Virus record (IMG/VR): IMGVR_UViG_3300035181_002389
Coordinates: 1-54,668 of that record
DNA from: a virus
Length of the DNA stretch: 54,668 nucleotides
Strand: one strand, 5' to 3'
The notes under the pieces were generated by a model that saw nothing but the letters and a program-made list of their open reading frames with translations, was not told the DNA's origin and did not search any database. Positions 11,350 through 31,583 of this stretch are shown one piece after another (the first letter of the stretch is position 1; each line of letters opens with the position of its first letter). Both the position numbers and the translations under genes were made by a program.

Positions 11350-11619
11350 TTAAATGTCAACTTGAACCATATCCCACCAACCGCTAATAGTACGCTTGAT
11401 AGTTTTGAGATCATACGGAATACCATTTTCATCTCGGTAAATATCACCTTGATAATGTGCAACTTCAATTGCCTCTTCGAGGGTTCGAGCCTTATGGATG
11501 CCGGTAACTGTCGAAACATAGAAAAGCTTAGTCTTAAAGCTATACTTGGCAAGAACATATCCAACAGCACGACGAATGGCAATGCAGTCAGGAAGGATGT
11601 AAGTGTAAATGCCTTTCAT
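11350..11619 (-). CDS. Hypothetical protein
   Basis: 89 residues from the ATG at 11619 (MKGIYTYILPDCIAIRRAVG), preceded by GATGAGGAACAT; a 14-codon extension to 11661 has no ribosome binding site but cannot be excluded. The C-terminal half (ARTLEEAIEVAHYQGDIYRD, then GIPYDLKTIKR) resembles the gene at 17049 (AIDVARKMGIISKDKNGNPL), which suggests a shared small domain. A GTTACAC-type promoter is at 11695-11737. Confidence 0.62.
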   Translation of the reverse strand: MKGIYTYILPDCIAIRRAVGYVLAKYSFKTKLFYVSTVTGIHKARTLEEAIEVAHYQGDIYRDENGIPYDLKTIKRTISGWWDMVQVDI

Positions 11620-11694
11620 ATGTTCCTCATCTGCTTCGTTGATTACATCGTTTTGAAACATTTTAATAGATCATGTTGCTCAACCGATAGATGA

Positions 11695-11737
11695 ATTATA
11701 TCACCGATCTGGCATTTGTGCACAATTAATGTGTAAC
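11695..11737 (-). promoter_or_regulatory. Promoter with upstream GTTACAC element
   Basis: TATAAT (11695-11700) with GTTACAC (11731-11737) exactly 30 nt upstream; CGGTGA precedes the TATAAT. Directed at the gene starting at 11619. Confidence 0.6.
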
Positions 11738-11852
11738 TACGTTTTTACAAAAGTTAGTATCACCTCACCCGCATAGAATCTTGTCGCATAGAATCTTGAC
11801 AATAAATGTTGTTAGCGAGTGCTTAGCAAGCAACCGATCATCTCGTGTGTTA

Positions 11853-12053
11853 TTATTCGGGGTTGTGAATGCTGTAAACTGCACGAATCATGCTGATAAG
11901 TCCAAACACTGTCACAACAACAAAGATGATGGAAATAGCAAAAGCCGTGACAATCGCAGATGCCTTAAGATGAACAAGAAGAAACAAAGCAACCATTGCG
12001 GTCGCAATAGCAATACTTAATACACCTACAGTACCAATTAGATAATACAACAT
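11853..12053 (-). CDS. 66-aa membrane protein
   Basis: Starts MLYYLIGTVGVLSIAIATAM with a second hydrophobic segment (AFAISIIFVVVTVFGLISMI), so two membrane spans joined by LVHLKASAIVT. GGAG lies about 9 nt before the ATG. Unknown function. Confidence 0.62.
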   Translation of the reverse strand: MLYYLIGTVGVLSIAIATAMVALFLLVHLKASAIVTAFAISIIFVVVTVFGLISMIRAVYSIHNPE

Positions 12054-12113
12054 GACAAATTCACTCCACGGTTATGATAAAAACGATTGATGTCAACAGA
12101 ACACGAAGACAAA

Positions 12114-12326
12114 TCAACACGTTTTGAGATTAGAAATTTTTTCAGCAACGTTTTGAGCTTTCCAAGCCCATACTCCATAAACACCACCGAAATTCAAGCG
12201 ATTGGCAATTGTCTCAGCTTCTTGCTTCGAACAAGCATTGATAATACCAATAATCGGATCACCAACTGACATAGCATATTCTTGATCAAGATATGAAATG
12301 TTCCAGTCAATTCGATCATTAGACAT
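12114..12326 (-). CDS. Hypothetical protein
   Basis: 70 residues (MSNDRIDWNISYLDQEYAMS onward). Contains SVGDPIIGIINACSKQEAET followed by IANRLNFGGVYGVWAW. The IINACSKQEAETIAN helix resembles the DEA-containing helix of other small proteins in this region. The ribosome binding site is weak. Unknown family. Confidence 0.55.
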   Translation of the reverse strand: MSNDRIDWNISYLDQEYAMSVGDPIIGIINACSKQEAETIANRLNFGGVYGVWAWKAQNVAEKISNLKTC

Positions 12327-12375
12327 GATGATAACTTTTGATCGTTTATTGTTCAGTTTTTTATTGTTGATGATG

Positions 12376-12543
12376 TCATTGTGTCTTGTTAGACACTACT
12401 TCAAGAATCTTCAGAGCATCATCAAGTTCCATATCTTCCATTGTCATGATTTCTTGATTGTTGATATCAATGCTGTAGTGGTAGTTGCCCCATGACCATA
12501 ACACCACAGAACCTTTACGAGCGATGAAGACAGGTTGCTTCAT
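12376..12543 (-). CDS. Hypothetical 55-aa protein
   Basis: ATG at 12543 preceded by GAAGGAGATTATC; an upstream in-frame ATG at 12567 is less likely. The product (MKQPVFIARKGSVVLWSWGN, ending LKILEVVSNKTQ) has a beta N-terminus and an acidic C-terminal helix (MTMEDMELDDALK), like the ~90-aa acidic family at 19-20.6 kb. Unknown function. Confidence 0.6.
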   Translation of the reverse strand: MKQPVFIARKGSVVLWSWGNYHYSIDINNQEIMTMEDMELDDALKILEVVSNKTQ

Positions 12544-12661
12544 GATAATCTCCTTCAAAGTTCGCATGAACGATAATCATTTTTTTTGATCATCTATGGA
12601 TATTATATCACAAAAACGTAGATAGTACAGACTGTTTTTGTAAAAATTTTTAACAAAAAGA

Positions 12662-12683
12662 GACGCCCTCACGTGAGGGCGTC
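12662..12683 (-). terminator. Strong rho-independent terminator
   Basis: GACGCCCTCAC/GTGAGGGCGTC forms a perfect 22-nt palindrome, followed on the minus strand by TCTTTTTGTT. It ends the transcript carrying the gene at 12755-13282 and insulates the genes to its left. It is the most GC-rich stem in the window. Confidence 0.85.
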
Positions 12684-12754
12684 GGGCAAGAGATGCTATC
12701 TCAAGCGGGGTTAGAACATAGAAGAATCTTATTCAGATAAACTTGTAAACAGTT

Positions 12755-13282
12755 TCAAACATTCGCATTCATCTCTGCAAGCCTCTGTTTTGCAACATGA
12801 CGAACATATTTATCAGTGTCGCGGGCCAATGTTTTGAGACCATACCCTTGCTCTGCAACAACCATGCGAACTTCAGGGCGATGATCATTGATCAATTTAT
12901 CAAGCCCGTAGCCCTTTTGAGCAACAGCAACACGAACACCAGAGCAAGTGTCATTGATCAGAACATCAAGACCGTAGCCGTGATTAGCTACTTCTTTGCG
13001 AATCATGTAATGTTCATCATTGATTAGGATGTCCAAAGCCCGCCCATGCTGTGCAATTGCATAGCGAACAATGAAATCTTCATCTATTGCAAACGAGCAA
13101 ACTTCTTCCTCAGTAGACGTACCAGCGTAAGCATTAAGGATTTCATTGATGATGTTGTCGGGAATATTTTCCTTCATTTTCAACACGGAAATATTTTCAA
13201 GACTATACAGTGTAACGCCATAGAAGATAGCATCATCAATCAGAACAATCGTTTTGTAGGAATCGATGTGAAAAACTTTCAT
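12755..13282 (-). CDS. LRV-like alpha-solenoid repeat protein (copy 3)
   Basis: 175 residues; ATG preceded by AGAGGATTTATT. N-terminal beta domain (MKVFHIDSYKTIVLIDDAIF), then a helical linker with EEEVCSFAIDEDFIVRYAIA and five 22-residue units (e.g. GYGLDVLINDTCSGVRVAVA, GYGLDKLINDHRPEVRMVVA). Followed by a strong terminator. It lies directly downstream of a hexapeptide-repeat gene (13432), the same pairing as 15413/14725. Confidence 0.82.
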   Translation of the reverse strand: MKVFHIDSYKTIVLIDDAIFYGVTLYSLENISVLKMKENIPDNIINEILNAYAGTSTEEEVCSFAIDEDFIVRYAIAQHGRALDILINDEHYMIRKEVANHGYGLDVLINDTCSGVRVAVAQKGYGLDKLINDHRPEVRMVVAEQGYGLKTLARDTDKYVRHVAKQRLAEMNANV

Positions 13283-13378
13283 AATAAATCCTCTTGATGC
13301 ATTCCGTTGTTGGAATAATGATATTGTACACCATTTCTACGCACCTGCGAGCATTTTTTGTAAAAAAATGTTAAAACC

Positions 13379-13493
13379 AAATGTTATTCTATACTATAGT
13401 GTGTGAGAAAATCTTACTGTAAAAATAGAACTTAATATATCAATGTCTTAAGCCAAAATAAGTTGTCAAACTTATCCTCTTGCTTCACGTCAC
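13379..13493 (-). repeat. Direct repeat, copy A (about 115 bp)
   Basis: Near-identical to 15283-15394. It covers the intergenic DNA downstream of the hexapeptide-repeat gene and the last ~20 codons of that gene. Scattered substitutions separate the copies (for example AGCCAAAATAAG versus AGCTGAAATAAG). It marks one edge of a duplicated hexapeptide-gene/LRV-gene unit. Confidence 0.8.
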
Positions 13494-14280
13494 TGTTAGC
13501 ATTGTGGTGATCAGTGATCAATTTTTCTGGGCACCATGATGCTGTTACAAGGTTTGCAAATGTTAGTTGCTGCAAACTCTTGAGTTTATCGCAGTCGTCT
13601 TGAGCCTTCACGCGAAACTCATCCAGTGTACCTGAAAAACTTCCATCTTCAATCAACGGTCCACCTTCAACATTAAAAGCATAGACAGCGCCTAGATAAC
13701 CACCCGCGCCAAAAAATGCTAAAATCGGGTGGCCTTTCTTAGCAACCTTCCCATTAAAAACACACTTATCAGCAAAGTTGCAAAACTCGCCGAAAGAGCA
13801 GCGAGTTCCGAAGACACACCGCGCGTCAAAGACACATCGAGATCCAAAATCACACTGCTCACCAAACGTTGATTCTACACCAAATGAACAAGATTTACTA
13901 AAATTGCACTGCTCGTCAAATGTGCTATATTCTTCGAAGAAACAGTATTCGCCAAAAGAACATCCACCTTCGAATTTACATTTAGCAGCAAACTTACAAT
14001 GCTCGCCGAAGGCAGCACCAATACCGAACAAGCAACGCTCATCGAAAGAACATCCGCTTCCAAAGCGGCACCATTCACCAAAGCTAGACGCCTTGTCAAA
14101 GAAACAACGCTCACCAAAAGAGCAACGATCCCCAAAAACACTATCTTCCGCGAAGAAGCATTCAGCTGCGAAAGCACAATTATTAAAATTCTTTATATCG
14201 ACATAAATTCCCGGCGGGCAATACTTTATGCCATTGATAATCGGAAAAGAATCAAATTCCTTAAGCGCAATTTTCCTCAT
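13432..14280 (-). CDS. Hexapeptide F/C-repeat beta-solenoid protein (copy 1)
   Basis: 282 residues; ATG preceded by GAGGAAATGAAAT. Residues about 35-165 are more than 20 uninterrupted hexapeptides of the form S-F-G-x-x-C (e.g. SFGDRCSFGERC, TFGEQCDFGSRC), so Phe and Cys each recur every six residues. This periodicity is expected for a left-handed beta-helix with stacked inward-facing side chains. A C-terminal domain of about 90 residues follows (KKGHPILAFFGAGGYLGAVY, then GSFSGTLDEFRVKAQ), which resembles a phage/bacterial domain with a GSR and GCF-G signature. It ends with a 25-residue tail that is lost in copy 2. Function unknown; pentapeptide-like solenoids can mimic DNA, but that is speculation here. 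Confidence 0.85.
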   Translation of the reverse strand: MRKIALKEFDSFPIINGIKYCPPGIYVDIKNFNNCAFAAECFFAEDSVFGDRCSFGERCFFDKASSFGEWCRFGSGCSFDERCLFGIGAAFGEHCKFAAKCKFEGGCSFGEYCFFEEYSTFDEQCNFSKSCSFGVESTFGEQCDFGSRCVFDARCVFGTRCSFGEFCNFADKCVFNGKVAKKGHPILAFFGAGGYLGAVYAFNVEGGPLIEDGSFSGTLDEFRVKAQDDCDKLKSLQQLTFANLVTASWCPEKLITDHHNANSDVKQEDKFDNLFWLKTLIY

Positions 14281-14396
14281 ATTTCATTTCCTCATCAACG
14301 TTCGATAAACAACTGCAATGTTGATTATATATGATCTCTCGGCTTAGATTTGAGCCAAGAATTTACATTATTTTTATCCATTAACCTTCCAACAGA

Positions 14397-14666
14397 TTAA
14401 ATGTAGTATCCGTTAGTATTGACAACACCACCGTAGTCAAGTGTCAGCTCTTGTGTTTCATCATCCCAATCACCCCATTTAGATGGACAACCACCCCAAC
14501 TCACTGCCCCTCGCAATGCGTCAGGAAATGTTATCATGAAACAGATAGAACCTTCTTCTTGACAAATCCGCCATACGGTACAACCAACCTTTAGGTATTT
14601 TGCTTGGTCACATGGAATGAGCATTCGAATGTCATCAATATTTTCTTTAGTTACCGAAACCTTCAT
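14397..14666 (-). CDS. Hypothetical protein
   Basis: 89 residues from the ATG at 14666 (CAGGAGTTTAATAGA before it); a longer frame to 14738 overlaps the preceding gene and lacks a binding site. Contains a C-terminal Trp/Gly-rich part (RGAVSWGGCPSKWGDWDDET, then LTLDYGGVVNTNGYYI). Unknown family. Confidence 0.6.
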   Translation of the reverse strand: MKVSVTKENIDDIRMLIPCDQAKYLKVGCTVWRICQEEGSICFMITFPDALRGAVSWGGCPSKWGDWDDETQELTLDYGGVVNTNGYYI

Positions 14667-14724
14667 TCTATTAAACTCCTGAATACACTTCCACGTGATT
14701 CGTGGGCTCAAGATTTGTTTAATT

Positions 14725-15192
14725 TTAATACCCACCAAGACAACGAAAAACGATGAACTTGGCTACTGTAGCTTGTCGAACCATGATGTTTTCATCTTTC
14801 ATTAGAATGCCAAGACCATATCCCTGTCTTGCGACTGCTGCTCGAACATAAGGACTTTCGTCATTAATGAGAATATTCAAACCATAACCATGGTTTGCAA
14901 CGGCTTCTCGGATAAACCATTCTTTGTCATTTACCAGAATATCAAGTGCAAAACCGCATTTTGCAATAGCAAAACGAACCTCTTCATCATCGTCGTACGC
15001 AAATTGTCGAATCTTATTTGCAGAGAAGAAACCAATGTTATTGATAATATCTTGCTCTACAAGGCTAGGAATGTCGAACATCTCAAATAACTTATCAAGA
15101 TTTGTACTATCAAAAATCATTCCATCGTAAATGACATTATCTCCGATGAAGATTATTGGTTTACCTTTGAAATGATTACGTAGAACTTTCAT
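14725..15192 (-). CDS. LRV-like alpha-solenoid repeat protein (copy 4)
   Basis: 155 residues from the ATG at 15192 (AAGAGGATAATC before it, MKVLRNHFKGKPIIFIGDN after). Same architecture as copies 3, 6 and 7: beta domain, linker (IRQFAYDDDEEVRFAIAKCG), then three to four 22-residue units (GYGLNILINDESPYVRAAVA). The C-terminus departs from the repeat pattern (TVAKFIVFRCLGGY), as if truncated by rearrangement. Confidence 0.8.
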   Translation of the reverse strand: MKVLRNHFKGKPIIFIGDNVIYDGMIFDSTNLDKLFEMFDIPSLVEQDIINNIGFFSANKIRQFAYDDDEEVRFAIAKCGFALDILVNDKEWFIREAVANHGYGLNILINDESPYVRAAVARQGYGLGILMKDENIMVRQATVAKFIVFRCLGGY

Positions 15193-15282
15193 GATTATCC
15201 TCTTGATGCATTCAACTGACAGAGTAATGATATTATACTTCATTCTACACACGCGTGTACACTTTTGCTAAACCACAAAACT

Positions 15283-15394
15283 AATGTTATTCTACTAGAG
15301 TGTGTGAGGAAATCTTACTGTAAAAATAGAACTTAATATATCAATGTCTTAAGCTGAAATAAGTTGTTAAACTTATCTTTGTGCTTTACGTCAC
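15283..15394 (-). repeat. Direct repeat, copy B
   Basis: Second copy of the sequence at 13379-13493. Here it is no longer coding because the upstream hexapeptide-repeat gene stops earlier at 15413. Confidence 0.8.
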
Positions 15395-15412
15395 GGTAGG
15401 TATTTGTGATGG
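15333..15412 (-). pseudogene. Relic of the C-terminal tail of the hexapeptide-repeat gene
   Basis: In copy 1 the tail reads on to DKFDNLFWLKTLIY. In this copy the same DNA (encoding DKF, NLF, LKTLIY in another frame, with TAA at 15333-15335) is out of frame after ...CPEKIEY-stop, because the stretch between 15395 and 15420 has lost bases. It is a visible frameshift scar. Confidence 0.7.
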
Positions 15413-16132
15413 TCAGTATTCAATCTTTTCTGGACACCATGTTGCCGCGACTATATTGGCAAACCCAAGATACTGCAACGACTTAAGCTTATCGCTTTCG
15501 GCACGAACCTTTGTACGGAATGCTTCCAGGTCACCCGAGAAGCACCCAGCTTCGATCCATGGGCCATCTGCGACATTGATGGCATAGATCGTCCTGTTGA
15601 AGCTGCCAGCACCAGATAAAGTCAACAACGGATACCCAGGCTTTGCGCGTTTCCCATTGAAAACACATCCATCACCAAAACGGCACTCACCGGCAAAAGT
15701 GCACTGCTTGCCAAAACTGCATTCAAGGTCAAAGACACAACGCTTACCGAAACTGAATAAATCACCAAAGATACAAGACTTGTCAAAGCTACAGCACTCG
15801 CCGCAGCTACAATCTTCATCAAAACTGCATCCAACACCAAATCTACAGCGATCGCCGTAGCTACAATACTCACCGAACACACAACGCTCACCGAACACAC
15901 AGCACTTGCCAAAGATACAACATTCACCAAAAGTACACTTCTTGCCAAAGACACAGTCCGAGCCAAACACACACCAATCACCAAAACAACTGTCTGCACT
16001 GAAGTGACTACCTGCAGCAAAGCTACACATATTGCCAAAATCATGGACTGAAGAGTAGTCACCAACAGGGCATTGCTTAAACCTGTTAACTACAGGCAGC
16101 ATGTCGAATTCTTCCTGTGTGTACATTTTCAT
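15413..16132 (-). CDS. Hexapeptide F/C-repeat beta-solenoid protein (copy 2)
   Basis: 239 residues from the ATG at 16132 (GAGGAACACGAG before it); the N-terminus MKMYTQEEFDMLPVV aligns with copy 3 (MKIYTQSDFDALPIV). About 20 hexapeptides follow, e.g. CVFGERCVFGEYC and SCGECCSFDKSC; several units have extra Cys. The C-terminal domain (GSFNRTIYAINVADGPWIEA, then GCFSGDLEAFRTKV) is intact but the extra tail of copy 1 is lost by frameshift. It precedes an LRV gene, as copy 1 does. Confidence 0.85.
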   Translation of the reverse strand: MKMYTQEEFDMLPVVNRFKQCPVGDYSSVHDFGNMCSFAAGSHFSADSCFGDWCVFGSDCVFGKKCTFGECCIFGKCCVFGERCVFGEYCSYGDRCRFGVGCSFDEDCSCGECCSFDKSCIFGDLFSFGKRCVFDLECSFGKQCTFAGECRFGDGCVFNGKRAKPGYPLLTLSGAGSFNRTIYAINVADGPWIEAGCFSGDLEAFRTKVRAESDKLKSLQYLGFANIVAATWCPEKIEY

Positions 16133-16234
16133 CTCGTGTTCCTCGTTTATATTACACCTTGGAGTTATTAAGAATATCTTTGAGATCAAAGATCTATGTT
16201 GATTGATGCATTATTTAGTTGACTTATTTTTCAT

Positions 16235-16582
16235 TCAGTACACAAGACGAACATCCCAACCTTCTTTGATGTACGAGTCAACTTTACTCTTGACCATTTC
16301 CGCGTGTTCTTTGCGAGCGTTGACAGTTCGGGTACCAATAGGTGGACGCTCTTGCCAAATATCATCATCAGCATAAATGGGTTCCTCGTACTCAGCCCCC
16401 TCAGCATCTTTAAAAAGCCAGTCAATATATGCTTTCACGGGGTCAGCAGACTCAAGAATACTGTTAAGCTCAGTATTGCTTGGTTCAGGCAAGCAGTCAA
16501 ACAACTCAACTTGTTGCACTTCGTGTTTACCAGTGCGTTTAACGATGATGTCACGCTCAGCGATGATTCCAAAATCAAGCAT
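16235..16582 (-). CDS. Hypothetical protein, paralog of 18794
   Basis: 115 residues from the ATG at 16582 (AGGTAGGTTGAAA before it). Shares with the gene at 18794 the blocks ERDIIVKRTGKHEVQ, LFDCLPEPSN, ADPVKAYIDWL and a C-terminal GWDVRLVY. These suggest a small alpha/beta domain duplicated within the region. Unknown function. Confidence 0.68.
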   Translation of the reverse strand: MLDFGIIAERDIIVKRTGKHEVQQVELFDCLPEPSNTELNSILESADPVKAYIDWLFKDAEGAEYEEPIYADDDIWQERPPIGTRTVNARKEHAEMVKSKVDSYIKEGWDVRLVY

Positions 16583-16615
16583 TTTCAACCTACCTTTTTA
16601 ATCTATTAAAACTTC

Positions 16616-16906
16616 TTACAAATGATTCACATCACCAGTTGCGATGAAACGGACAATAGGTTCAGTATCATTTGCGAGGATATCCAATCCGTATCCTTGC
16701 TTAGCAACTGCGCAGCGAACGTGCATGTCAGGATCATTAATCAGGAAATCAAGGCCATATCCTTGCTTAGCAACTGTTTCGCGAACCCATGGATCTTTGT
16801 CATTGATAAGGATATCCAATCCATATCCTTGCTTGGCAACCTCAGCGCGAACCAAAGGGTTATTATCCTTAATCAAGGTAGCAAGCTGTTTAACGTTCGC
16901 GTTCAT
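16616..16906 (-). CDS. Minimal LRV-like repeat protein (copy 5)
   Basis: 96 residues, ATG preceded by GAAAGGATAATATC. It consists almost only of 22-residue units (four), e.g. GYGLDILINDKDPWVRETVA and GYGLDFLINDPDMHVRCAVA, without the N-terminal beta domain of its paralogs. It may be a free-standing repeat cassette created by deletion. Confidence 0.78.
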   Translation of the reverse strand: MNANVKQLATLIKDNNPLVRAEVAKQGYGLDILINDKDPWVRETVAKQGYGLDFLINDPDMHVRCAVAKQGYGLDILANDTEPIVRFIATGDVNHL

Positions 16907-16949
16907 GATATTATCCTTTCAGCTTTGATGAAGTTCAACCGATAAATGA

Positions 16950-16992
16950 ATTATACCATAAACCTGACGTTTATACACCGCTAAAGTGTAAC
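16950..16992 (-). promoter_or_regulatory. Promoter with upstream GTTACAC element
   Basis: TATAAT (16950-16955), preceded by TTATGG, with GTTACAC at 16986-16992, 30 nt upstream. Directed at the gene at 16616-16906. Confidence 0.6.
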
Positions 16993-17048
16993 AGTTTGTA
17001 GAATCTTCTAATTTTCAAGAAAATGCACATTCCTAAGATCAATATAAT

Positions 17049-17408
17049 TCACATTGCTTTAAGCATCATTGGAATAAATGGGATAAGAACTAATGCAAAA
17101 CAAACAGCCATAATGATGCAAGTGTTTCTTATTGTGGTTCTTACTTCACGTTTACTAGCTAGATGTTCAAGCTGATCCAAACTAAGCGGATTGCCGTTTT
17201 TGTCCTTAGAGATAATACCCATCTTACGAGCAACATCAATTGCGTCACTCATTGAATTTGTTTGGTAACGACCATTTTCCGTCAGAACTTCAAATGTATA
17301 TTTTCTTAGTATATCGGCGTTGATTAAAACATATCCCCTATTACATTCAACGGCAATGCCATTAAGTACGTTAATAATCTTGGCATTGATAATTTTGACA
17401 TCTGACAT
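17049..17408 (-). CDS. Tail-anchored hypothetical membrane protein
   Basis: 119 residues from the ATG at 17408 (ATGAGGTTAAACATT before it). N-terminal soluble beta part (SDVKIINAKIINVLNGIAVE), a helix with SMSDAIDVARKMGIISKDKN, and a C-terminal hydrophobic span (NTCIIMAVCFALVLIPFIPM), so it is probably anchored in the membrane by its C-terminus. Weak similarity in the AIDVAR block to the gene at 11350. Confidence 0.65.
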   Translation of the reverse strand: MSDVKIINAKIINVLNGIAVECNRGYVLINADILRKYTFEVLTENGRYQTNSMSDAIDVARKMGIISKDKNGNPLSLDQLEHLASKREVRTTIRNTCIIMAVCFALVLIPFIPMMLKAM

Positions 17409-17470
17409 AATGTTTAACCTCATCAGGGTAAGAAGATGATTATTCAACCATAAACAGATTTATGGTATGC

Positions 17471-17932
17471 TTAACACACATTTACATTTAACTTTCTTTG
17501 TGCAACTGAACTAACGATGTAATCAGGATCATTCACAAGGATATCAAGACAGTAACCTTTTTTCGCAACAGTTTGTCGCACCATAGGATCCTTATCATTT
17601 ACGAGCTTATAGAGACCATAACATTGTTCAGCGACTTCTTTTCGGACGAGCCAATCTTCGTCATTCACGAGAATGTCAAGTGCTTTTCCACACAATGCAA
17701 TAGCATGACGAACGTCTGGATCTGGATCAGTTGCATACTTGCGCACTTCATCATCAGATGATTTTTCACCAGTGTAATTATTAATGAGTTCTTGAAATTT
17801 CTCTTTGGAGATATAGAAAATATCAAAAAAATCCTCAAGTGTTTCTCGTGTGAAACGGATGCCATCAAACACGATATTATCATCGATAAAGACAACGGTT
17901 TTCCCCATAAAGAAATTGCGAATAACTTTCAT
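17471..17932 (-). CDS. LRV-like alpha-solenoid repeat protein (copy 6)
   Basis: 153 residues; AAGGAACTAATC precedes the ATG. N-terminal domain MKVIRNFFMGKTVVFIDDNI, linker with DDEVRKYATDPDPDVRHAIA, then about four repeat units. It is very similar to copy 7 just upstream, from which it differs mainly by fewer repeats, as expected from tandem duplication followed by repeat loss. It has its own promoter at 17971-17999. Confidence 0.82.
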   Translation of the reverse strand: MKVIRNFFMGKTVVFIDDNIVFDGIRFTRETLEDFFDIFYISKEKFQELINNYTGEKSSDDEVRKYATDPDPDVRHAIALCGKALDILVNDEDWLVRKEVAEQCYGLYKLVNDKDPMVRQTVAKKGYCLDILVNDPDYIVSSVAQRKLNVNVC

Positions 17933-17970
17933 GATTAGTTCCTTCTATCGTTTTTATTACTAGTGTGTTT

Positions 17971-17999
17971 ATTATAGCATGATCTATTACCGATATCAA
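17971..17999 (-). promoter_or_regulatory. Sigma70 promoter TTGATA-17-TATAAT
   Basis: Minus-strand TATAAT at 17971-17976 and TTGATA at 17994-17999 with a 17-nt spacer, about 40 nt before the gene starting at 17932. Confidence 0.65.
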
Positions 18000-24920: not shown

Positions 24921-24938
24921 GATGAGTATCCCTTTGAA

Positions 24939-25262
24939 TCAATTTCGAATGTATTGATAAAGATAAGCATCCCTTTCAATCTCACGCAACAGAGCAATGA
25001 ACTCGCCAACTTCGTTTGCAGGAACTCCTAAGAAAAACCCAAAAATTTCCGAATCTGAATCTGACCAGGGTTGACGCTTGCCGTCAATCTCTCGATCAAG
25101 GTCTTTACCTTTGAGATCTTCAAATCCTGAGAAATCAAATCCTCGATTTCGAAGCCAGCGATAACGAGCAGCATCTGCTTCAGTATTACGAATGCGGTTT
25201 ACCAGCTCTTCGATTTCGACAGTAGAATTTTGATTAGAACAAGATGTGTTGAACATGACCAT
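24939..25262 (-). CDS. RYRFL-family hypothetical protein
   Basis: 107 residues, AAGGTGGTCTAAA before the ATG. Contains NTEADAARYRWLRNRGFDF and LDREIDGK, a motif shared with the genes at 24093 and 29228 and with many small phage proteins in which DAARYRWLR precedes a short helical domain ending in LD-x-E-ID. C-terminal IERDAYLYQYIRN repeats part of the motif. Unknown function. Confidence 0.7.
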   Translation of the reverse strand: MVMFNTSCSNQNSTVEIEELVNRIRNTEADAARYRWLRNRGFDFSGFEDLKGKDLDREIDGKRQPWSDSDSEIFGFFLGVPANEVGEFIALLREIERDAYLYQYIRN

Positions 25263-25288
25263 TTTAGACCACCTTGAGAACTTTAATA

Positions 25289-25369
25289 TCAGTGAGTGAT
25301 GTCATATAAAGCAAAAATGGCGATTGCAATGTAAATGACAGCTACGACGATATCAGAGAAAGTAAACAT
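25289..25369 (-). CDS. 26-aa membrane peptide
   Basis: MFTFSDIVVAVIYIAIAIFA followed by LYDITH; AGGAAATATC before the ATG. One membrane span. Lies between a tRNA gene and the gene at 24939. Confidence 0.55.
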   Translation of the reverse strand: MFTFSDIVVAVIYIAIAIFALYDITH

Positions 25370-25400
25370 GATATTTCCTATTCGCAAATCGCAAATGTTT

Positions 25401-25476
25401 TGGCTCCCCAACCTGGGCTCGAACCAGGGACCTGCGGATTAACAGTCCGACGCTCTACCGACTGAGCTATTGGGGA
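25401..25476 (-). tRNA. tRNA-Asn (anticodon GUU)
   Basis: 76 nt with encoded CCA. Acceptor TCCCCAA/TTGGGGA, D-arm GCTCAGTCGGTAGAGC, anticodon loop CTGTTAA, T-arm CCTGGTTCGAGCCCAGG; all stems pair fully. Confidence 0.95.
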
Positions 25477-25483
25477 ATGTGAG

Positions 25484-25930
25484 TTAAAGTTTCGTATTTA
25501 TCACCTCGCACACTACATCGAAATCATCGACGTTAAGATCACACGCAATGAACACGAGGGGCTTTCCTGGAGTGTTGTTGCGTGCGTAAGCTGCATGAGG
25601 CATCTTGTTGTTGAGGACAAATACTGAGCCATCGGCAAGATTGCCTACACGCTTCCAGTCCTTTTCGTATAGCACATGATCGCCAGAAAGCACGACGCCT
25701 AGAGTTATGTCGAATGGCACACTGTCGTCTGTATGTTCGCTTACGCCTAACGAAGCGTAGAGACCAGCGTTGTATGACTCAGGGTGCAGCTGTAGTATCA
25801 CGTTGAGAAGCGAATGCGAAATAGGCGCAGGTACAATATCATCAAATTTTGCCTCATTCATCAGACGAGACAGGACCTTCGGATCGACTTTAGGCAGACT
25901 CAGTTCAGCGTCAAATACAATTGCGTTCAT
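25484..25930 (-). CDS. 2OG-Fe(II) oxygenase-like protein
   Basis: 148 residues. The motif EHTDD (His66, Asp68) and PHAAYAR (His112) with a following PLVFIACDL strand match the H-x-D...H iron site and double-stranded beta-helix end of 2-oxoglutarate-dependent oxygenases; GDHVLYEKDWKRVGNLADGS and VFVLNNKMPHA are typical of the phage variety. The 2OG-binding Arg would be Arg117 or a nearby residue and is not certain. Such enzymes hydroxylate proteins or nucleobases; the substrate cannot be told. Ends directly next to the tRNA-Asn gene. Confidence 0.6.
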   Translation of the reverse strand: MNAIVFDAELSLPKVDPKVLSRLMNEAKFDDIVPAPISHSLLNVILQLHPESYNAGLYASLGVSEHTDDSVPFDITLGVVLSGDHVLYEKDWKRVGNLADGSVFVLNNKMPHAAYARNNTPGKPLVFIACDLNVDDFDVVCEVINTKL

Positions 25931-25943
25931 ATGCTCAACGGAC

Positions 25944-26477
25944 TTAGATGCTCACGGAAATGCTTTGCTGCAATGTCAAGTACTCTTTCATCAGGTTTGA
26001 CATCCATGTTGAAGCAAGTTTAGCCGCTTCCTTTGCTACATTGATACGCTCGAGATAATATTCAAGCTTGAATTTCTCGTACATCTGCGAAGAATATTCG
26101 GCAATGTTCAAGCACTCATTATAATCATGATTAATCGTGTTGAATAGTTTGAACAGCCCGCTAACAATTTCCTTCGGTGTGCGACGAAAATATCCCTCAG
26201 GTGTTTCAACAGGAACACGCTTTCCATTTACGAACCCATACTTCTTGAGCTCATCACAATCGATGATATGAACAGGGTCTGCGCAACCGACCTTATATTC
26301 CCTGACTGATTTGGAATAGACATCAATGCCCGGGAATACACGCTCAACCCACTTCGCAGCTTCCTGAAGATCAGATGCATGGATGTTGAAGGAATACATA
26401 TCCTTCGACACAAGACTCCATGTCTCAGAGCCGTAGGGATGGAAAAGCATGACATGAAACGTTTTCGAACTTATCAT
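25944..26477 (-). CDS. SYTFEIHA-family protein (intact copy)
   Basis: 177 residues from the ATG at 26477; a start at 26516 is possible. Shares with 29581 the plan DMYSFNIHASDLQEAAKWVE, IIDCDELKKYGFVNGKRVPV, ETPEGYFRRTPKEIVSGLFK and a C-terminal helix (STWMSNLMKEYL). The block ETPEGYFRRTP is strongly conserved in all three copies and may be a binding loop. Unknown function. Confidence 0.72.
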   Translation of the reverse strand: MISSKTFHVMLFHPYGSETWSLVSKDMYSFNIHASDLQEAAKWVERVFPGIDVYSKSVREYKVGCADPVHIIDCDELKKYGFVNGKRVPVETPEGYFRRTPKEIVSGLFKLFNTINHDYNECLNIAEYSSQMYEKFKLEYYLERINVAKEAAKLASTWMSNLMKEYLTLQQSISVSI

Positions 26478-26599
26478 CTTTACACTCGCTTCTAAAAGTT
26501 TCTGAATCGCCATCATGAAACAACTAGTAGAAAATGGTACCTTTCACAAGATGTTATTCCATGATCTGTCCTTTTTCCATTATTCTTGTTGTTGGGTAT

Positions 26600-26652
26600 A
26601 TTATATCATGATCTGGTATCGTTGCCAATAACCTACAAGTTAAATGTGTAAC
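26600..26652 (-). promoter_or_regulatory. Promoter TTGGCA-17-TATAAT with upstream GTTACAC
   Basis: TATAAT 26600-26605, TTGGCA 26623-26628, GTTACAC 26646-26652. Here the element lies above a recognisable -35 box. Drives 25944-26477. Confidence 0.68.
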
Positions 26653-26654
26653 TT

Positions 26655-26729
26655 CTTGTATCCCTCAGGGATTAAACTGGCAATCTATAGCTTATATGTT
26701 GACTGCTCTAACAATTGAGCTAATGTGGC
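26655..26729 (-). pseudogene. Decayed tRNA-Ile(UAU) copy
   Basis: The 5' half (GCCACATTAGCTCAATTG, then TTAGAGC) matches the intact tRNA-Ile genes and the loop still reads CATATAA, but the anticodon stem (GTCAA/GCTAT) and T-arm no longer pair and the 3' acceptor is lost. Between this and the gene at 26821 no other feature is seen. Confidence 0.75.
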
Positions 26730-26820
26730 ACACATGATAGCTATCATATTGCCATGATTATGGCACAGAAAATGTTAAGAATCACCCACAAAAAGTATGG
26801 TCTCTACCAGAGACAATCAA

Positions 26821-26964
26821 TTAGGTGAAGAGATGGAGACATATAAGGAAAACGCCAATCACATAAGCGATGATGAAGCACGGCGGGAAGAATGTCGAAG
26901 ATGGAAGAAGGATTAAAATTGCTGCAATGCCAATGTAGGTAATCGTGTCTCTAATTTTAACCAT
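26821..26964 (-). CDS. 47-aa membrane protein
   Basis: MVKIRDTITYIGIAAILILL, PSSTFFPP turn, then CFIIAYVIGVFLICLHLFT: two membrane spans. AAGGATTGAAAAT before the ATG; promoter at 27003-27052. Unknown function. Confidence 0.6.
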   Translation of the reverse strand: MVKIRDTITYIGIAAILILLPSSTFFPPCFIIAYVIGVFLICLHLFT

Positions 26965-27002
26965 ATTTTCAATCCTTCGGTATTTCCGTTGCTATTGTGT
27001 AA

Positions 27003-27052
27003 ATTATATCATAATTTGGCGTCTTTGCCGATAAGACAGCTTATAGTGTAAC
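27003..27052 (-). promoter_or_regulatory. Promoter TCGGCA-17-TATAAT with upstream GTTACAC
   Basis: TATAAT 27003-27008 preceded by TATGA, TCGGCA 27026-27031, GTTACAC 27046-27052. Drives 26821-26964. Confidence 0.62.
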
Positions 27053-27136
27053 CAGACAATTATATTACATCTTGTCATTGTAACTCTTGTTCATCATTTA
27101 AGATGAAAGTTTTGACAATGCTGACTGCATCAAAAG

Positions 27137-27400
27137 CTATACCGCCTCATAGGTCGCCTCGAAAATGTCTGGTTTACAAGGGTAGAATTCACCCTTGACA
27201 CCACGGATGATCCAGCCCCCGGGCGATACTTCGTGCAGGCCTTCTAGTGTGCCAATCTGCCATGTAATCAGCTTGCCATAACAGATTTTTACATCAACAG
27301 TCGGAACCCCAAATTCAGTTTCCAGTTTCTTCTTTGATTCAAATGTCCCATCAAACTGGTGTGCTTCAATCACTACCGGCTTCTTCCTAAATTTTGCCAT
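27137..27400 (-). CDS. MAKFRKKP-family phage protein (copy 2)
   Basis: 87 residues from the ATG at 27400, preceded by ATGGAGGATAAT. MAKFRKKPVVIEAHQFDGTF start, IGTLEGLHEVSPGGWIIRGV and EFYPCKPDIFEATYEAV end; about 80% identical to copy 1 by eye. It lies just downstream of a hexapeptide-repeat gene. Confidence 0.85.
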   Translation of the reverse strand: MAKFRKKPVVIEAHQFDGTFESKKKLETEFGVPTVDVKICYGKLITWQIGTLEGLHEVSPGGWIIRGVKGEFYPCKPDIFEATYEAV

Positions 27401-27423
27401 ATTATCCTCCATGATAATCAAAC

Positions 27424-28245
27424 TCAATTGCTTTGTCTAGATTTTTCAACCTTTTCTGGATACCAGACAGATGCAACGATGTCGGCAAATCCCAAACATT
27501 GCAAACGCTTAAAAGCATCATCATCAATGACTTTTGCACGGAAAGTATCGATATTGCCTATGAATTTATCAATCTCAAATATTGGACCGCCTTCAACATT
27601 GAAGGCATAAATTGTCAGGTTGGAGCTACCCACACCAGACATAGTCATCATCGGGTGCCCCGGAAGGGCAATTTGACCATCAAAAACACATTTCTGACCG
27701 AATGTAGAATCAATTCCGAACATGCAATGTTTGTCAAATTGACACTGATTCCCAAAGGTGCACAATGCGCCAAATCTGCACCATTGGCTGAAAGAGCATT
27801 CGTCTACAAATTCGCACCAATCACCAAATTGATTCGAGGTGCCGAATCTGCATTGCTTGCTAAAGATGCACTCTCTACTAAATACGCACTTCAATCCAAA
27901 TACGCACGCTTCACCGAACCTGGAAAATTCGTTGAACGAACATGCGTTGCCAAACACACTCTCATGGCCAAAGACACATCCGTCGGCGAATTCGCACCAG
28001 TCACCGAACTTAGAATTCGTGTGGAAAATGCAGCCAGAGCCGAACTTGCAGCAATCGGCGAAAATACAGTTCTGTAAGAACTCACAAAAATCACCAAATA
28101 CAGATTGTTCGCTGAAAACACATCCATCGGCAAATATGTTTTTGCTACCAAAGGCGACAATTGTAGTATAATCGCCAGTTGGGCACTGACGATAGCCGTT
28201 GACAATTGGTAACGCGTCAAAATCTGATTGAGTATATATTTTCAT
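27424..28245 (-). CDS. Hexapeptide F/C-repeat beta-solenoid protein (copy 3)
   Basis: 273 residues from the second of two adjacent ATGs (28245, GGGGAAC before it). MKIYTQSDFDALPIVNGYRQ start, then more than 20 hexapeptides (SVFGDFCEFLQNCIF, KFGDWCEFADGCVFG), with Phe fully kept and Cys more often replaced by Ser or Asn than in copies 1 and 2. C-terminal domain GVGSSNLTIYAFNVEGGPIF and DIVASVWYPEKV follows. Part of the duplicated block with the MAKFRKKP gene. Confidence 0.85.
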   Translation of the reverse strand: MKIYTQSDFDALPIVNGYRQCPTGDYTTIVAFGSKNIFADGCVFSEQSVFGDFCEFLQNCIFADCCKFGSGCIFHTNSKFGDWCEFADGCVFGHESVFGNACSFNEFSRFGEACVFGLKCVFSRECIFSKQCRFGTSNQFGDWCEFVDECSFSQWCRFGALCTFGNQCQFDKHCMFGIDSTFGQKCVFDGQIALPGHPMMTMSGVGSSNLTIYAFNVEGGPIFEIDKFIGNIDTFRAKVIDDDAFKRLQCLGFADIVASVWYPEKVEKSRQSN

Positions 28246-28283
28246 CATGTTCCCCAGTGATGAAGAAGACTGTTCTATTCAGT

Positions 28284-28667
28284 TTAATTAGTCATGCCTG
28301 CGCACTCTTTACAGTTACCGCAATTGGAACAACCGATGCAGATGACACAGTCAGCACAATTGGTACAATTAACACAATTTGTACACTTAACACAGCTAAT
28401 GCAATTTGCGCATTTAGTACAGCCTTCACTGTCAAAGCAGCTGACACAATCATTGCAATCGGTACAGTTTTTACATTCAACACAGCCTATGCAACCATCA
28501 CAATTAACACAGCTAGCACAACCAATGCAATTTTTGCAATCGATACAGTCGATACATTTTGTGCACCCAGCCTCATCAAGAGCTTTACATCTCGTATCAG
28601 CTTCAGTTTGGCTCTCGTAACTAAATGAGCGATTTCCTTTAGAAGAAATACTGGAGAGATAACGCAT
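28284..28667 (-). CDS. Cys-every-third-residue repeat protein (copy 3)
   Basis: 127 residues: MRYLSSISSKGNRSFSYESQ, TEADTRCKALDEAGC, then CTKCIDCIDCKNCIGCASC and more, over 30 Cys. ACATCATGCG context shows a weaker ribosome binding site (GAAAGAAACATC). It is the intact model for the broken copy at 24642. Confidence 0.85.
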   Translation of the reverse strand: MRYLSSISSKGNRSFSYESQTEADTRCKALDEAGCTKCIDCIDCKNCIGCASCVNCDGCIGCVECKNCTDCNDCVSCFDSEGCTKCANCISCVKCTNCVNCTNCADCVICIGCSNCGNCKECAGMTN

Positions 28668-28698
28668 GATGTTTCTTTCGATGTTTACAACAACTAGT

Positions 28699-29055
28699 TT
28701 ATTTTACGTTGTTAGTGCAGAATGAACAGTCAACACAATTAATGGATTCAAGGCAATTATTGCAATTTTTACAATTGATACAGTTTTTGCATTGAGAACA
28801 ATCAGTGCAGTGGATGCAACCAAAACAATCAGTACATCCAACACATTTCTTAGAATTACTGACATCAACACAATCTACACAACCAGCACAATTAAAGCAG
28901 CCTACGCAACCAGTGCAATTTTTACAATTGATGCAATTGAAGCAATTGACACACCCAGCGTCATCAAGTGCTTTACAAAGCATATCAGCATCTTCTTGTG
29001 ATTTAAGACTGGTTGAACAGTTGCCATTTTTAGAAACAGCAGAAATATAGTACAT
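28699..29055 (-). CDS. Cys-every-third-residue repeat protein (copy 4)
   Basis: 118 residues, AAGAAGGATGCACT before the ATG. MYYISAVSKNGNCSTSLKSQ, EDADMLCKALDDAGC, then the CxxCxxC array interrupted once by DVSNSKKC, at the same relative place where copy 1 has KGSKKC and copy 5 has STGNEC, so the interruption is a conserved loop. Confidence 0.85.
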   Translation of the reverse strand: MYYISAVSKNGNCSTSLKSQEDADMLCKALDDAGCVNCFNCINCKNCTGCVGCFNCAGCVDCVDVSNSKKCVGCTDCFGCIHCTDCSQCKNCINCKNCNNCLESINCVDCSFCTNNVK

Positions 29056-29082
29056 AGTGCATCCTTCTTAAAGTGAAATGAG

Positions 29083-29158
29083 TGGTTCCACCTGCAGGAT
29101 TCGAACCTGCAACCTGTCGCTTATAAGGCAACTGCTCTACCAATTGAGCTAAGGTGGC
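29083..29158 (-). tRNA. tRNA-Ile (anticodon UAU), second gene
   Basis: 76 nt with encoded CCA, differing from the gene at 24006 at a few bases (anticodon stem GTTGC/GCGAC, T-stem GCAGG/CCTGC fully paired). Same G-A mismatch at the first acceptor pair. Lies in the same gene context (upstream of a Cys-repeat gene, downstream of an RYRFL gene). Confidence 0.9.
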
Positions 29159-29166
29159 GTATATAC

Positions 29167-29215
29167 TGGGTCTTTAGCTTGGATTCAAACCAAGAACTTA
29201 CAACTTATGTTGTCA
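29167..29215 (-). pseudogene. 3' fragment of a tRNA
   Basis: A perfect T-arm CTTGGTTTGAATCCAAG followed by a 7-nt acceptor strand, one base and CCA, but no D-arm or 5' acceptor is found. A similar remnant T-arm with imperfect pairing lies at 14343-14359 and another near 30874-30895. Confidence 0.6.
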
Positions 29216-29227
29216 TTACTTTTCCTT

Positions 29228-29563
29228 TTAAGCATTTGAGAGAATGAGATTATCAACTTCTTGATCGAGAGCATCGAATGAATAAAAATCAAGGATGCCA
29301 TGATCAAGGGATACATATTCAAGACAACAAATATTGCCATCGCTGAGAAAACGATATCGTGCAGCATCTGTTTCTAGATCGCGCGAACGATCACTAACAA
29401 AATCCATATGTCTAATATTGATATCAACCTCATCATCAAGGTCAACACCATCAGAAAAGACTAGCTCATTTTCAAGCAAGCCGTACTCAAGGCAGCTGAG
29501 ACCACCCTCGCGAAGAAATTGATAACGGGTGGCATCTTTTTTAGTCTTATAATCGATGACCAT
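29228..29563 (-). CDS. RYRFL-family protein (double unit)
   Basis: 111 residues, AAGGAAGTATATATC before the ATG. Two units: MVIDYKTKKDATRYQFLREG and LETDAARYRFLSDGN, each followed by CLEY and an acidic stretch, ending LDQEVDNLILSNA. The 24093 gene corresponds to the second unit. Unknown function. Confidence 0.72.
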   Translation of the reverse strand: MVIDYKTKKDATRYQFLREGGLSCLEYGLLENELVFSDGVDLDDEVDINIRHMDFVSDRSRDLETDAARYRFLSDGNICCLEYVSLDHGILDFYSFDALDQEVDNLILSNA

Positions 29564-29580
29564 GATATATACTTCCTTGT

Positions 29581-30132
29581 TTAGACTTGTGCTGCGATTT
29601 TGCTTACAGCATCCAAAAGCGCTCGGCGAACCTCTTCACGCATTGGTTCCATGTTACACTGAATTGGAAATTCATTCAATAGATTTACTAGCCATGTCTT
29701 GATACGGACAGAGCCTTCTTTTGCCTCATTGAGATCCTTGAGATGAGAATCAGTTTCAAAATTTTCGTATAGTATCGCGCAGCACTTAACTTGATCTGAG
29801 ATTTTCGCATAATCATCACTGAGCGCCTCTACCAGATTGCATAGACTGACGGCAACCTCTTCAGGGGAAGAGCGATAGTATCCTTCAGGCTTTTCGATAA
29901 TGAACTGTTTCCCATTTATACGATGATACTTCTTAATAGCATCACAATCGATAATAGAGTCAGCGCACATTTCCATATCAATGCCATCGAACATGTGCGT
30001 AACCCAATCCAATGCTTCCTGATAATTGGCAGCATGAATTTCAAAAGTATATGAATCTCGCCCAATGAGAGTTTTTGTCTTAGGTCCAAGAAAATTACGC
30101 AACTTAACTTGATATGTCTTTGGGTTCATCAT
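29581..30132 (-). CDS. SYTFEIHA-family protein (intact copy)
   Basis: 183 residues, GAAAGGAAA before two adjacent ATGs. MMNPKTYQVKLRNFLGPKTK, RDSYTFEIHAANYQEALDWV, THMFDGIDMEM, INGKQFIIEKPEGYYRSSPE, IKTWLVNLLNEFP. It serves as the reference for the frameshifted copy at 22587. Promoter at 30163-30190. Confidence 0.75.
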   Translation of the reverse strand: MMNPKTYQVKLRNFLGPKTKTLIGRDSYTFEIHAANYQEALDWVTHMFDGIDMEMCADSIIDCDAIKKYHRINGKQFIIEKPEGYYRSSPEEVAVSLCNLVEALSDDYAKISDQVKCCAILYENFETDSHLKDLNEAKEGSVRIKTWLVNLLNEFPIQCNMEPMREEVRRALLDAVSKIAAQV

Positions 30133-30162
30133 TTTCCTTTCACAATTTTTATTGTTGGGTAT

Positions 30163-30190
30163 ATTATAACATGTTCTAGCAAAATATCAA
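30163..30190 (-). promoter_or_regulatory. Sigma70 promoter TTGATA-16-TATAAT
   Basis: TATAAT 30163-30168, TTGATA 30185-30190. Drives 29581-30132. Confidence 0.65.
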
Positions 30191-30244
30191 ACAATCGTAC
30201 ATGTTGCAAAGTTGCTTACAGATGATTCCTATCCGTTGACATCA

Positions 30245-30715
30245 TCATTTTGAATAATCATCAACGTCATGATTCATGTGATATGTCAATCCACTAGACC
30301 GAGTATAACTAGTGCACCATGTACAGTCTTCACATTCTTCGCAATCATCGCAATTGAAGCAAGCTTTGCATTCGTTGCAAGCAGTACAGCCAGCACACTG
30401 CACGCAATTGATGCAATTGATGCAGTCAGTACAGTCTGTGCAAACTTTGCATTCGTTACCGGTGGAGCAGACTTTACAATCTGTACAATCGATACAATCT
30501 GTACAATCGATACAATCAGTACAGTGGGTGCAATTTGTGCAATCAACACATCCAACGCAGCCTACACAGTGGCTGCAATTGATGCATTCGACACAACCGA
30601 AACAGTTTACACAGTTGGCTTCATCTAGTTCTTTGCAACGCGCATCAGCCTCTGCCTGTGACACGTAGCTCCACGAGTGATTTCCTTTAGGCGAAACTTC
30701 AGACACGTAATACAT
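30245..30715 (-). CDS. Cys-every-third-residue repeat protein (copy 5, longest)
   Basis: 156 residues. MYYVSEVSPKGNHSWSYVSQ, AEADARCKELDEANC, then a run that includes four near-perfect DNA repeats (CTDCIDCTDCIDCTDC), the loop STGNEC, and acidic units (CDDCEECEDC). The C-terminus leaves the pattern (RSSGLTYHMNHDVDDYSK). About 40 Cys. Nearby DNA repeats make it prone to expansion and contraction. Confidence 0.85.
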   Translation of the reverse strand: MYYVSEVSPKGNHSWSYVSQAEADARCKELDEANCVNCFGCVECINCSHCVGCVGCVDCTNCTHCTDCIDCTDCIDCTDCKVCSTGNECKVCTDCTDCINCINCVQCAGCTACNECKACFNCDDCEECEDCTWCTSYTRSSGLTYHMNHDVDDYSK

Positions 30716-30784
30716 AATACTTTCACCTTATAAGAACAAAGCTCCAATTGACTAGGGCTAAAGCGATGTCATTGTCAAGTTATT

Positions 30785-30859
30785 TGGCCTCTTGGCTTGG
30801 ATTCGAACCTGCGACCGATCGATTATGAGTCGACTGCTCTAACCACTGAGCTAAGGCAG
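30785..30859 (-). pseudogene. Chimeric tRNA-Met(CAU)-like gene
   Basis: The 5' part is a good tRNA: GCTGCCT acceptor, D-arm GCTCAGTGGTTAGAGC, anticodon arm GTCGACTCATAATCGAT with anticodon CAT. After the T-loop TTCGAATCC the sequence continues AAG plus a 7-nt strand, G and CCA that belong to a different tRNA: the T-stem (GCAGG versus CCAAG) and acceptor stem (GCTGCCT versus CCAAGAG) do not pair. It looks like a crossover inside the conserved T-loop, probably with a tRNA of the type left as a fragment at 29167. Confidence 0.75.
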
Positions 30860-30890
30860 CGAATGAGTTGACGCATTGGCTTGGAATCGA

Positions 30891-31253
30891 ATCAAGAGTC
30901 TAGGCCAATTGATATACCGAGGTAGGCTTCAAAAGTCTTTTTCTTTTCAAGAATGTTCACATCACGTGAAGTAATAATACCGGTTTGACCAGGTGCGATC
31001 TCTCAAACTTCTTGGCCCATAGCAAAATTGGTCTTGTCTTCGGCAGGTACATGAGATGCAACCCCTCATCAATATCGATGAGGTAGTCATCAATGAACAC
31101 CGACTCTGGAATGGTAGAGCCGTCGCCCTTCGGTTGAATGGCAATCTGACGAGTGCCATTCATATGCTCCATGATCTGCAATGTTGTGCCTTTCAAACAA
31201 GTCACAACATCCTAGACATTGTTGCCGAGGTTGATTACCTTCTTGTCAGACAT
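30891..31253 (-). pseudogene. Decayed two-domain phage gene
   Basis: From the ATG at 31253 (MSDKKVINLGNNV) an in-frame TAG (31212-31214) is followed without a shift by DVVTCLKGTTLQIMEHMNGT and RQIAIQPKGDGSTIPE, a pattern of a common small phage protein (LG-x-x-V-R-D-V-V-T...). Around 31065 the sensible frame changes and gives NFAMGQEV-TGA-EIAPGQTGIITSRDV to a TGA at 30891. So two stops, both just after the Val of a V-(R/K)-(D/E) motif, and one frameshift have accumulated. The first 82 codons after the TAG remain open (to 30957). Confidence 0.7.
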
Positions 31254-31261
31254 GATTTCTC

Positions 31262-31519
31262 TTAGCTGACAAACAAATTAGAATAGACAGCTTTGATTTC
31301 ACCCATGATGAAGGCTTCAGTACCAAAGTCAGGACCATAGTACCACTCTTTCAGGAACTTGATGATGTCAGTACTGTTGCCTTGTACAGAGTACAGCGGG
31401 TTCCCGCCAGCAGGACCATTTTCAGTGATCAACATAAGCTCAATACCGTATTGCAGCTCAAGTTCAACTTCAGCTTCACGGGACAGGACGTTGATAATAT
31501 CCAGTTCGATCGTTGCCAT
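31262..31519 (-). CDS. Hypothetical 85-aa protein
   Basis: AAAGGCTGTATC before the ATG. MATIELDIINVLSREAEVEL, then YGIELMLITENGPAGGNPLY and FLKEWYYGPDF. A small alpha/beta protein; 8 nt from the decayed gene. Promoter at 31555-31583. Confidence 0.65.
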   Translation of the reverse strand: MATIELDIINVLSREAEVELELQYGIELMLITENGPAGGNPLYSVQGNSTDIIKFLKEWYYGPDFGTEAFIMGEIKAVYSNLFVS

Positions 31520-31554
31520 GATACAGCCTTTATGTGTTGGTTGATGATAGAATA

Positions 31555-31583
31555 ATTATACCACAACAATCCTACCTTGTAAA
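31555..31583 (-). promoter_or_regulatory. Sigma70 promoter TTTACA-17-TATAAT
   Basis: TATAAT 31555-31560 preceded by GTGG, TTTACA 31578-31583. Drives 31262-31519. Confidence 0.7.

Follow-up and report, generated by a model that had tools for sequence, protein, structure and literature searches.

A block of local paralogs in a T4-superfamily phage fragment

The IMG/VR record IMGVR_UViG_3300035181_002389, a metagenome-derived stretch of 54,668 bases analyzed here in full (hereafter the window) and probably a fragment of a larger genome, carries a block of small paralogous genes on its minus strand. A preliminary description had placed this cluster within 20 kb (11350-31583). We found this interval to be too small, the block extending over ~4.6-31.5 kb (about 27 kb) with ~55 genes (Table 1). 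By comparing all window proteins with one another by BLASTP, we obtained 61 pairs at E<1e-3, including a few alternative starts of one gene, versus an average of 0.1 across 20 controls with shuffled residues, which confirms that the clustered local paralogs are real.

The paralogs form 11 families of two to seven members each, plus tRNA copies. Previously proposed memberships held for the LRV/HEAT-like solenoid family (seven, E down to 2e-56), the hexapeptide (F-G-x-x-C-x) family (three, E down to 1e-69), the Cys-triplet family (five, one of just 64 amino acids), the YID family (three), the SYTFEIHA family (SYTF; three, with an apparently frameshifted copy at 22587-23187), the MAKFRKKP pair (MAKF; 82% identity in both DNA and protein) and the 16235/18794 pair (P16; E 3e-16). 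Other counts had to be corrected: the FLSI family has five tandem members, with no sixth gene found among the window proteins, the RYRFL family has two solid members and a fragment at 24096-24299 rather than three, and the MKG-IR small membrane genes are three rather than two. The 11350/17049 pair (P11; E 6e-7) is an additional family. Two tRNA-Ile copies, 96% identical, also lie in the block, and two decayed tRNA-like sequences (30793-30866 and 26650-26730, minus strand) are found near them. By DNA self-comparison, we also found duplicated segments extending into intergenic DNA; 13274-13685 versus 15184-15588 (74%), for example, takes in the end of a hexapeptide gene, the intergenic DNA and the start of an LRV gene. 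In protein, the window paralogs mostly differ by 35-65%.

T4-type core genes place the carrier in the T4 superfamily; those in the right part of the window (minus strand) encode UvsW-type and Dda-like helicases, clamp loader, NrdA/NrdB and others. Since the nearest matches of NrdA are only ~52% identical (Stenotrophomonas phages and Xanthomonas phage X1), the window represents a divergent lineage. A near-identity search of known phages with the window returned tRNA matches only.

The block is common to a distant phage

We found a homologous block at 12.7-25.7 kb of a second record, IMGVR_UViG_3300035181_001055 (G001; 126,753 bases), with all families except MAKF. G001 likewise has T4-superfamily genes (T4-type portal, sheath, baseplate and large terminase), its portal being 47-51% identical to those of phages of Xanthomonas, Variovorax and Acidovorax. 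Copy numbers in the window and G001 are 7 and 2 for LRV, 5 and 2 for Cys-triplet, 3 and 1 for SYTF, 5 and 3 for FLSI, 3 and 3 (one short) for hexapeptide, 3 and 3 for YID, 3 and 1 for MKG, 3 (the two solid members plus the fragment) and 1 for RYRFL, 2 and 1 for both P16 and P11, and 2 and 0 for MAKF. Gene order is partly conserved: SYTF-g47, MKG-YID-g36-FLSI-FLSI and g19-g14-g13-LRV-ClpP are collinear, and one hexapeptide gene, one LRV gene and P16 are located elsewhere in G001. A third contig (L108; 9,060 bases) shares mostly 80-94% identity with G001 past the block edge; at the place where G001 carries a single LRV gene and lacks g11, it has two LRV genes plus g11. Thus, copy number differs even between close relatives. 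The preliminary description had proposed such a comparison, in which a fixed set in unchanged order would have spoken against it, and the outcome supports recurrent local duplication in a phage.

Reciprocal best hits between the window and G001 share 36-90% identity in the block (median ~60%) versus 22-37% for core proteins, of which only five could be compared because both records are possibly incomplete. The simplest explanation is therefore that block DNA was exchanged between distant phages. The higher G+C of the G001 block (46%, against 41% in the rest of the contig) is in keeping with such an exchange.

As the window is a metagenome fragment, we considered whether an assembly artefact or a strain chimera had multiplied one gene set. 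This is hardly credible: the differences between paralogs exceed strain variation, G001 and L108 also have the block, and a contig from a separate metagenome (G006) repeats ~30.0-44.3 kb of the window at 99-100% protein identity. G006 is the same phage and covers the core-to-block junction, which argues against a chimera there, and we rejected this possibility.

Apart from G006, widened scans for FLSI and SYTF detected only the window and G001, a first FLSI scan having given no match, and single-protein searches with LRV in viral contigs and with SYTF and hexapeptide proteins in a phage collection returned no relatives. In several contigs of 57-59% G+C (L003, L006, L011, L046, L052 and G002/G003), Cys-triplet and hexapeptide genes lie close together without the other paralog families, and this pair therefore travels well beyond the window phage.

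Strong promoters and hairpin linkers head groups of genes

We scanned the block for strong promoters, defined as sigma70-type sequences within 1 of 12 of consensus. First, eight near-consensus promoters were found on the minus strand of the window block and none on the plus strand (0.36 expected per strand). Second, a promoter lies within 130 bp of 10 of the 55 gene starts, with one more at 26628, farther upstream; about 11 strong promoters, all on the minus strand, thus stand for ~55 genes, and the run of five FLSI genes has no such promoter. The private promoters ascribed earlier to each family are therefore real as strong promoters, but they serve groups of genes. Third, the G001 block has ten promoters on its coding strand, versus 0.08 expected.

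These ten G001 promoters have in common a module of ~73 bases, in which column identity averages 72% and a hairpin directly adjoins the -35 box. The modules precede unrelated genes, including LRV, P16, RYRFL, hexapeptide and MKG genes, and their folding energies are about -8 to -14 kcal/mol in most cases and just -3.1 in one. The hairpin is 84% paired, against 34-51% once the pairing partners are slid. We also detected the module in L108, in G005 and, more weakly, at four window sites. When viral contigs were scanned for the promoter pattern, 27 stretches were retrieved, and block genes were present only in those of G001 and L108.

Many duplications are older than the sharing of the block

In phylogenetic trees of five families (LRV, hexapeptide, FLSI, YID and SYTF), window members pair with G001 members with strong support, and many duplications thus predate the sharing of the block. 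Some family members are window-only, and the branching order of the Cys-triplet tree is not resolved. The single LRV gene that G001 has at the place compared with L108 (24356-25120) matches one paralog in its N-terminal part and the other in its C-terminal part, and contains EQEYGLEKLVHDPSPYVRAAVA twice as an exact internal repeat. Two adjacent paralogs appear to have fused here, a pattern that would be expected from deletion by recombination between tandem paralogs.

Several members have decayed, namely the truncated Cys-triplet gene at 24642, the frameshifted SYTF copy, the RYRFL fragment, the tRNA remnants and, in G001, a truncated g47. They would fit a neutral birth and death in which recombination makes copies in a tolerated region, most of them without a selected role. 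We regard this as unlikely, since most copies keep open frames, some reach up to 81-90% identity to their G001 orthologs and promoters persist; many copies thus seem to be under selection.

Solenoid and small acidic proteins

The LRV protein encoded at 18016 matches Pfam HEAT, LRV proteins match phrog_20647 (a PHROG without assigned function), and homologs exist in T4-like isolates. In the cultivated Vibrio phage vB_VmeM-32 (KU160494), LRV/HEAT homologs occupy five separate loci (~34.5, 130, 136, 144 and 148 kb). With the hexapeptide profile, the window proteins stay under the Pfam cut-off and homologs reach 3.5e-9. The model of hexapeptide gene 2 is a confident solenoid with a C-terminal domain, for which no significant match was found in the PDB. 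The Cys-triplet model is of low confidence (pLDDT 73) and gave no significant fold match; PDB sequence matches of this family look compositional and were discarded. In a Cys-triplet protein of another contig (L012, 1234-2022), the C-terminal part shows a weak resemblance (E 0.015) to that of hexapeptide proteins, hinting at a module common to both families.

The solenoid fold of the hexapeptide model and the match of one homolog to a tail-fibre PHROG could indicate that the beta-solenoid genes were amplified for host range as tail-fibre-like components. We find such a virion or adhesion role improbable: the promoters are of early type, no structural genes were recognised nearby in the window, and the solenoid genes are interspersed with small soluble and membrane genes.

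A role of the block mainly as an anti-defence or host-takeover arsenal, with paralogs as variants for different host targets, is a tentative proposal that we hold somewhat short of even. The early-type promoters, small accessory genes and local paralogs recall the anti-defence architecture of the Sulfolobus virus SIRV2, where duplicated AcrID1 genes stand behind conserved early promoters (PMC11065993). Net charges of about -6 to -15 per 100 residues make the FLSI, RYRFL and P16 proteins acidic. However, PADLOC, Pfam and PHROG returned no defence, anti-defence or host-takeover match for any paralog family, the methyltransferase at 9509-11296 being the sole PADLOC match. In addition, the solenoid families are only mildly acidic, too mild for DNA mimicry, which is thus not indicated. 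Promoters of early type would suit host-directed early genes; the host-directed or anti-defence meaning suggested earlier is still an inference, as no known family matches.

Other genes in and around the block

The block is split by a gene for an N6/N4 DNA methyltransferase that runs in the opposite direction (9509-11296, plus strand); its nearest phage match (49%) is in an Acutalibacteraceae phage record, and it is missing from the matching place in G001. The ClpP-like protease at the block edge (4589-5200, minus strand) has its closest match among named records, at 61%, in uncultured huge phages (460-640 kb). A single-copy protein (25484-25930, minus strand) has an HTD...H pattern that by eye resembles 2OG-Fe(II) oxygenases, with no Pfam match, and its G001 counterpart is truncated. 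Positions 2001-4000 have a G+C of 31.5%, below the remainder of the window.

Table 1. Features of the paralog block, in window coordinates.
Feature	Position	Strand	Evidence
Whole paralog block (putative early-gene island)	4589..31583	-	BLASTP, promoters, homologous G001 block 12.66-25.73 kb
ClpP-like protease gene, edge of block	4589..5200	-	90% to G001
MKG-IR small membrane gene	5958..6119	-	BLASTP
LRV/HEAT-like solenoid gene 1	6239..6838	-	BLASTP; ortholog in L108
LRV/HEAT-like gene 2	6868..7476	-	Orthologs in G001 and L108; 88% to L108
MKG-IR small membrane gene	8994..9155	-	BLASTP
P11 pair member	11350..11661	-	BLASTP
LRV/HEAT-like gene 3	12755..13282	-	Ortholog G001 14054
F-G-x-x-C-x hexapeptide (beta-solenoid) gene 1	13432..14280	-	BLASTP
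LRV/HEAT-like gene 4	14725..15192	-	BLASTP
Hexapeptide gene 2	15413..16132	-	AlphaFold2 pLDDT 89, solenoid + C-terminal domain
P16 pair member	16235..16582	-	BLASTP
LRV/HEAT-like gene 5, short	16616..16906	-	BLASTP
P11 pair member	17049..17408	-	BLASTP
LRV/HEAT-like gene 6	17471..17932	-	Sister of gene 7 in tree
LRV/HEAT-like gene 7	18016..18756	-	Pfam HEAT 56.8 bits, cut-off 23.5
P16 pair member	18794..19096	-	BLASTP
Five tandem FLSI genes (19148, 19452, 19766, 20091, 20403)	19148..20660	-	BLASTP, tree
YID gene	21502..21807	-	BLASTP
YID gene	21902..22105	-	76% to G001
MKG-IR small membrane gene	22106..22282	-	BLASTP, G001 comparison
YID gene	22350..22550	-	BLASTP
10-bp hairpin + strong promoter	22581..22642	-	Promoter and hairpin scans
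SYTFEIHA gene, apparently frameshifted copy	22587..23187	-	BLASTP, DNA self-comparison
MAKFRKKP gene	23235..23498	-	82% DNA identity to 27138-27402
Cys-triplet (C-x-[D/N/G]) gene	23559..23987	-	BLASTP
tRNA-Ile, second copy	24006..24081	-	96% to first copy
Consensus promoter TTGACA-17-TATAAT, 6-bp hairpin before it	24592..24620	-	Promoter and hairpin scans
Cys-triplet gene, truncated	24642..24836	-	BLASTP
RYRFL gene	24939..25262	-	BLASTP, G001 comparison
SYTFEIHA gene	25944..26477	-	69% to G001
Strong promoter, TATAATATACCCAACA downstream signature	26600..26628	-	Promoter scan
MAKFRKKP gene	27137..27400	-	phrog_419
Hexapeptide gene 3	27424..28245	-	65% to G001 18601
Cys-triplet gene	28284..28667	-	BLASTP
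Cys-triplet gene	28699..29055	-	BLASTP
tRNA-Ile	29083..29158	-	Window 29082-29164 98.8% identical to G001 DNA
RYRFL gene	29228..29563	-	BLASTP
SYTFEIHA gene	29581..30129	-	BLASTP
Strong promoter, TATAATATACCCAACA downstream signature	30163..30190	-	Promoter scan
Cys-triplet gene	30245..30715	-	phrog_15341

A probable hyperplastic island open to exchange

Taking these observations together, we consider it probable that the block is an early-expressed hyperplastic island of a T4-superfamily phage and that its evolution combines gene duplication and loss with fusion, relocation and exchange. Small accessory genes would be arranged in short transcription units, each headed by a strong host-type (sigma70, extended -10) promoter, some of which are joined to a hairpin that would terminate the preceding unit. 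Similar hairpin-promoter linkers before unrelated genes, together with tandem repeats, would supply the short homology by which genes could be duplicated, lost, fused, moved and exchanged between phages, so that the linkers may act as recombination sites. The solenoid and small acidic products may act on changing host targets, for example defences. The arsenal proposal is compatible with this island and adds a function to it.

Several points weigh against the hyperplastic island as we describe it, beginning with the small core comparison. No recombination junction was mapped exactly to a linker, the one fusion-like case, in LRV, lying within a gene instead, and the alignment of the relocated hexapeptide gene is confined to the gene itself. 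The window linkers are decayed: four match the G001 motif, few have strong hairpins and 2 of 10 form clear stem-loops. The hairpin shows modest covariation, with a score that 23 of 500 shuffles also reach. Most window block genes have their promoter in common with neighbours, and we infer early expression from promoter type. Finally, no family or structure match supports a specific role, and the defence searches described above were negative.

Known systems offer partial parallels. Arbiol et al. (2010) reportedly described PeSL elements, mobile promoter/stem-loop cassettes in T4-type phages. These combine an early promoter with a stem-loop, much as the linkers join an early-type promoter to a candidate stem-loop, and are likewise repeated between unrelated accessory genes of the T4-type hyperplastic region; here, however, there are ~11 paralog families, the cassette is clearest in the distant relative and the block is common to deep lineages. 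The host-takeover modules of SPO1 and Twort-like phages also bring together small early genes that have strong promoters of host type, but paralog families of this kind are, to our knowledge, not known there. Hyperplastic accessory regions of T4-like phages have been discussed for Acinetobacter phage ZZ1 (PMC4177764), an article that cites the PeSL study. As proposed for the block, small unknown genes with early-type promoters are gained there by recombination at conserved intergenic signals, whereas local paralogy is far denser here and many of the same families recur in a distant phage at 60-90%. The SIRV2 anti-defence cluster shares local paralogs, small early genes and one conserved promoter sequence, and indicates that a layout like that of the block can house anti-defence genes (PMC11065993). 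It differs in belonging to an archaeal virus with other promoters and known anti-CRISPR functions, in contrast to the putative role of the block. Lastly, vB_VmeM-32, Acinetobacter phage 133 and Pseudomonas phage PspYZU05 carry a homologous HEAT/LRV repeat family, at several loci in the first, but within the stretches examined their LRV genes are not in a multi-family block.

Beyond the preliminary description, the block is thus common to a distant phage, many of its duplications predate this sharing and its promoters serve gene groups. It is conceivable, though we lean against it, that it is a transferable, self-diversifying early-gene island, from which distant T4-superfamily phages would swap and re-copy a common set of ~10 families, not known otherwise, as a host-interaction pool. 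Several of these families are absent elsewhere among the viral contigs searched, and the repeated hairpin-promoter linkers and repeat-protein genes would enable the swapping.

The origin and diversification of the unknown early genes of phages are an open question that the block addresses, with copy-number change, fusion and block exchange seen across several contigs amid nearly unrelated core genomes. The idea of recombination at linkers becomes testable, and the families offer candidates for screens that look for targets in hosts or their defences.

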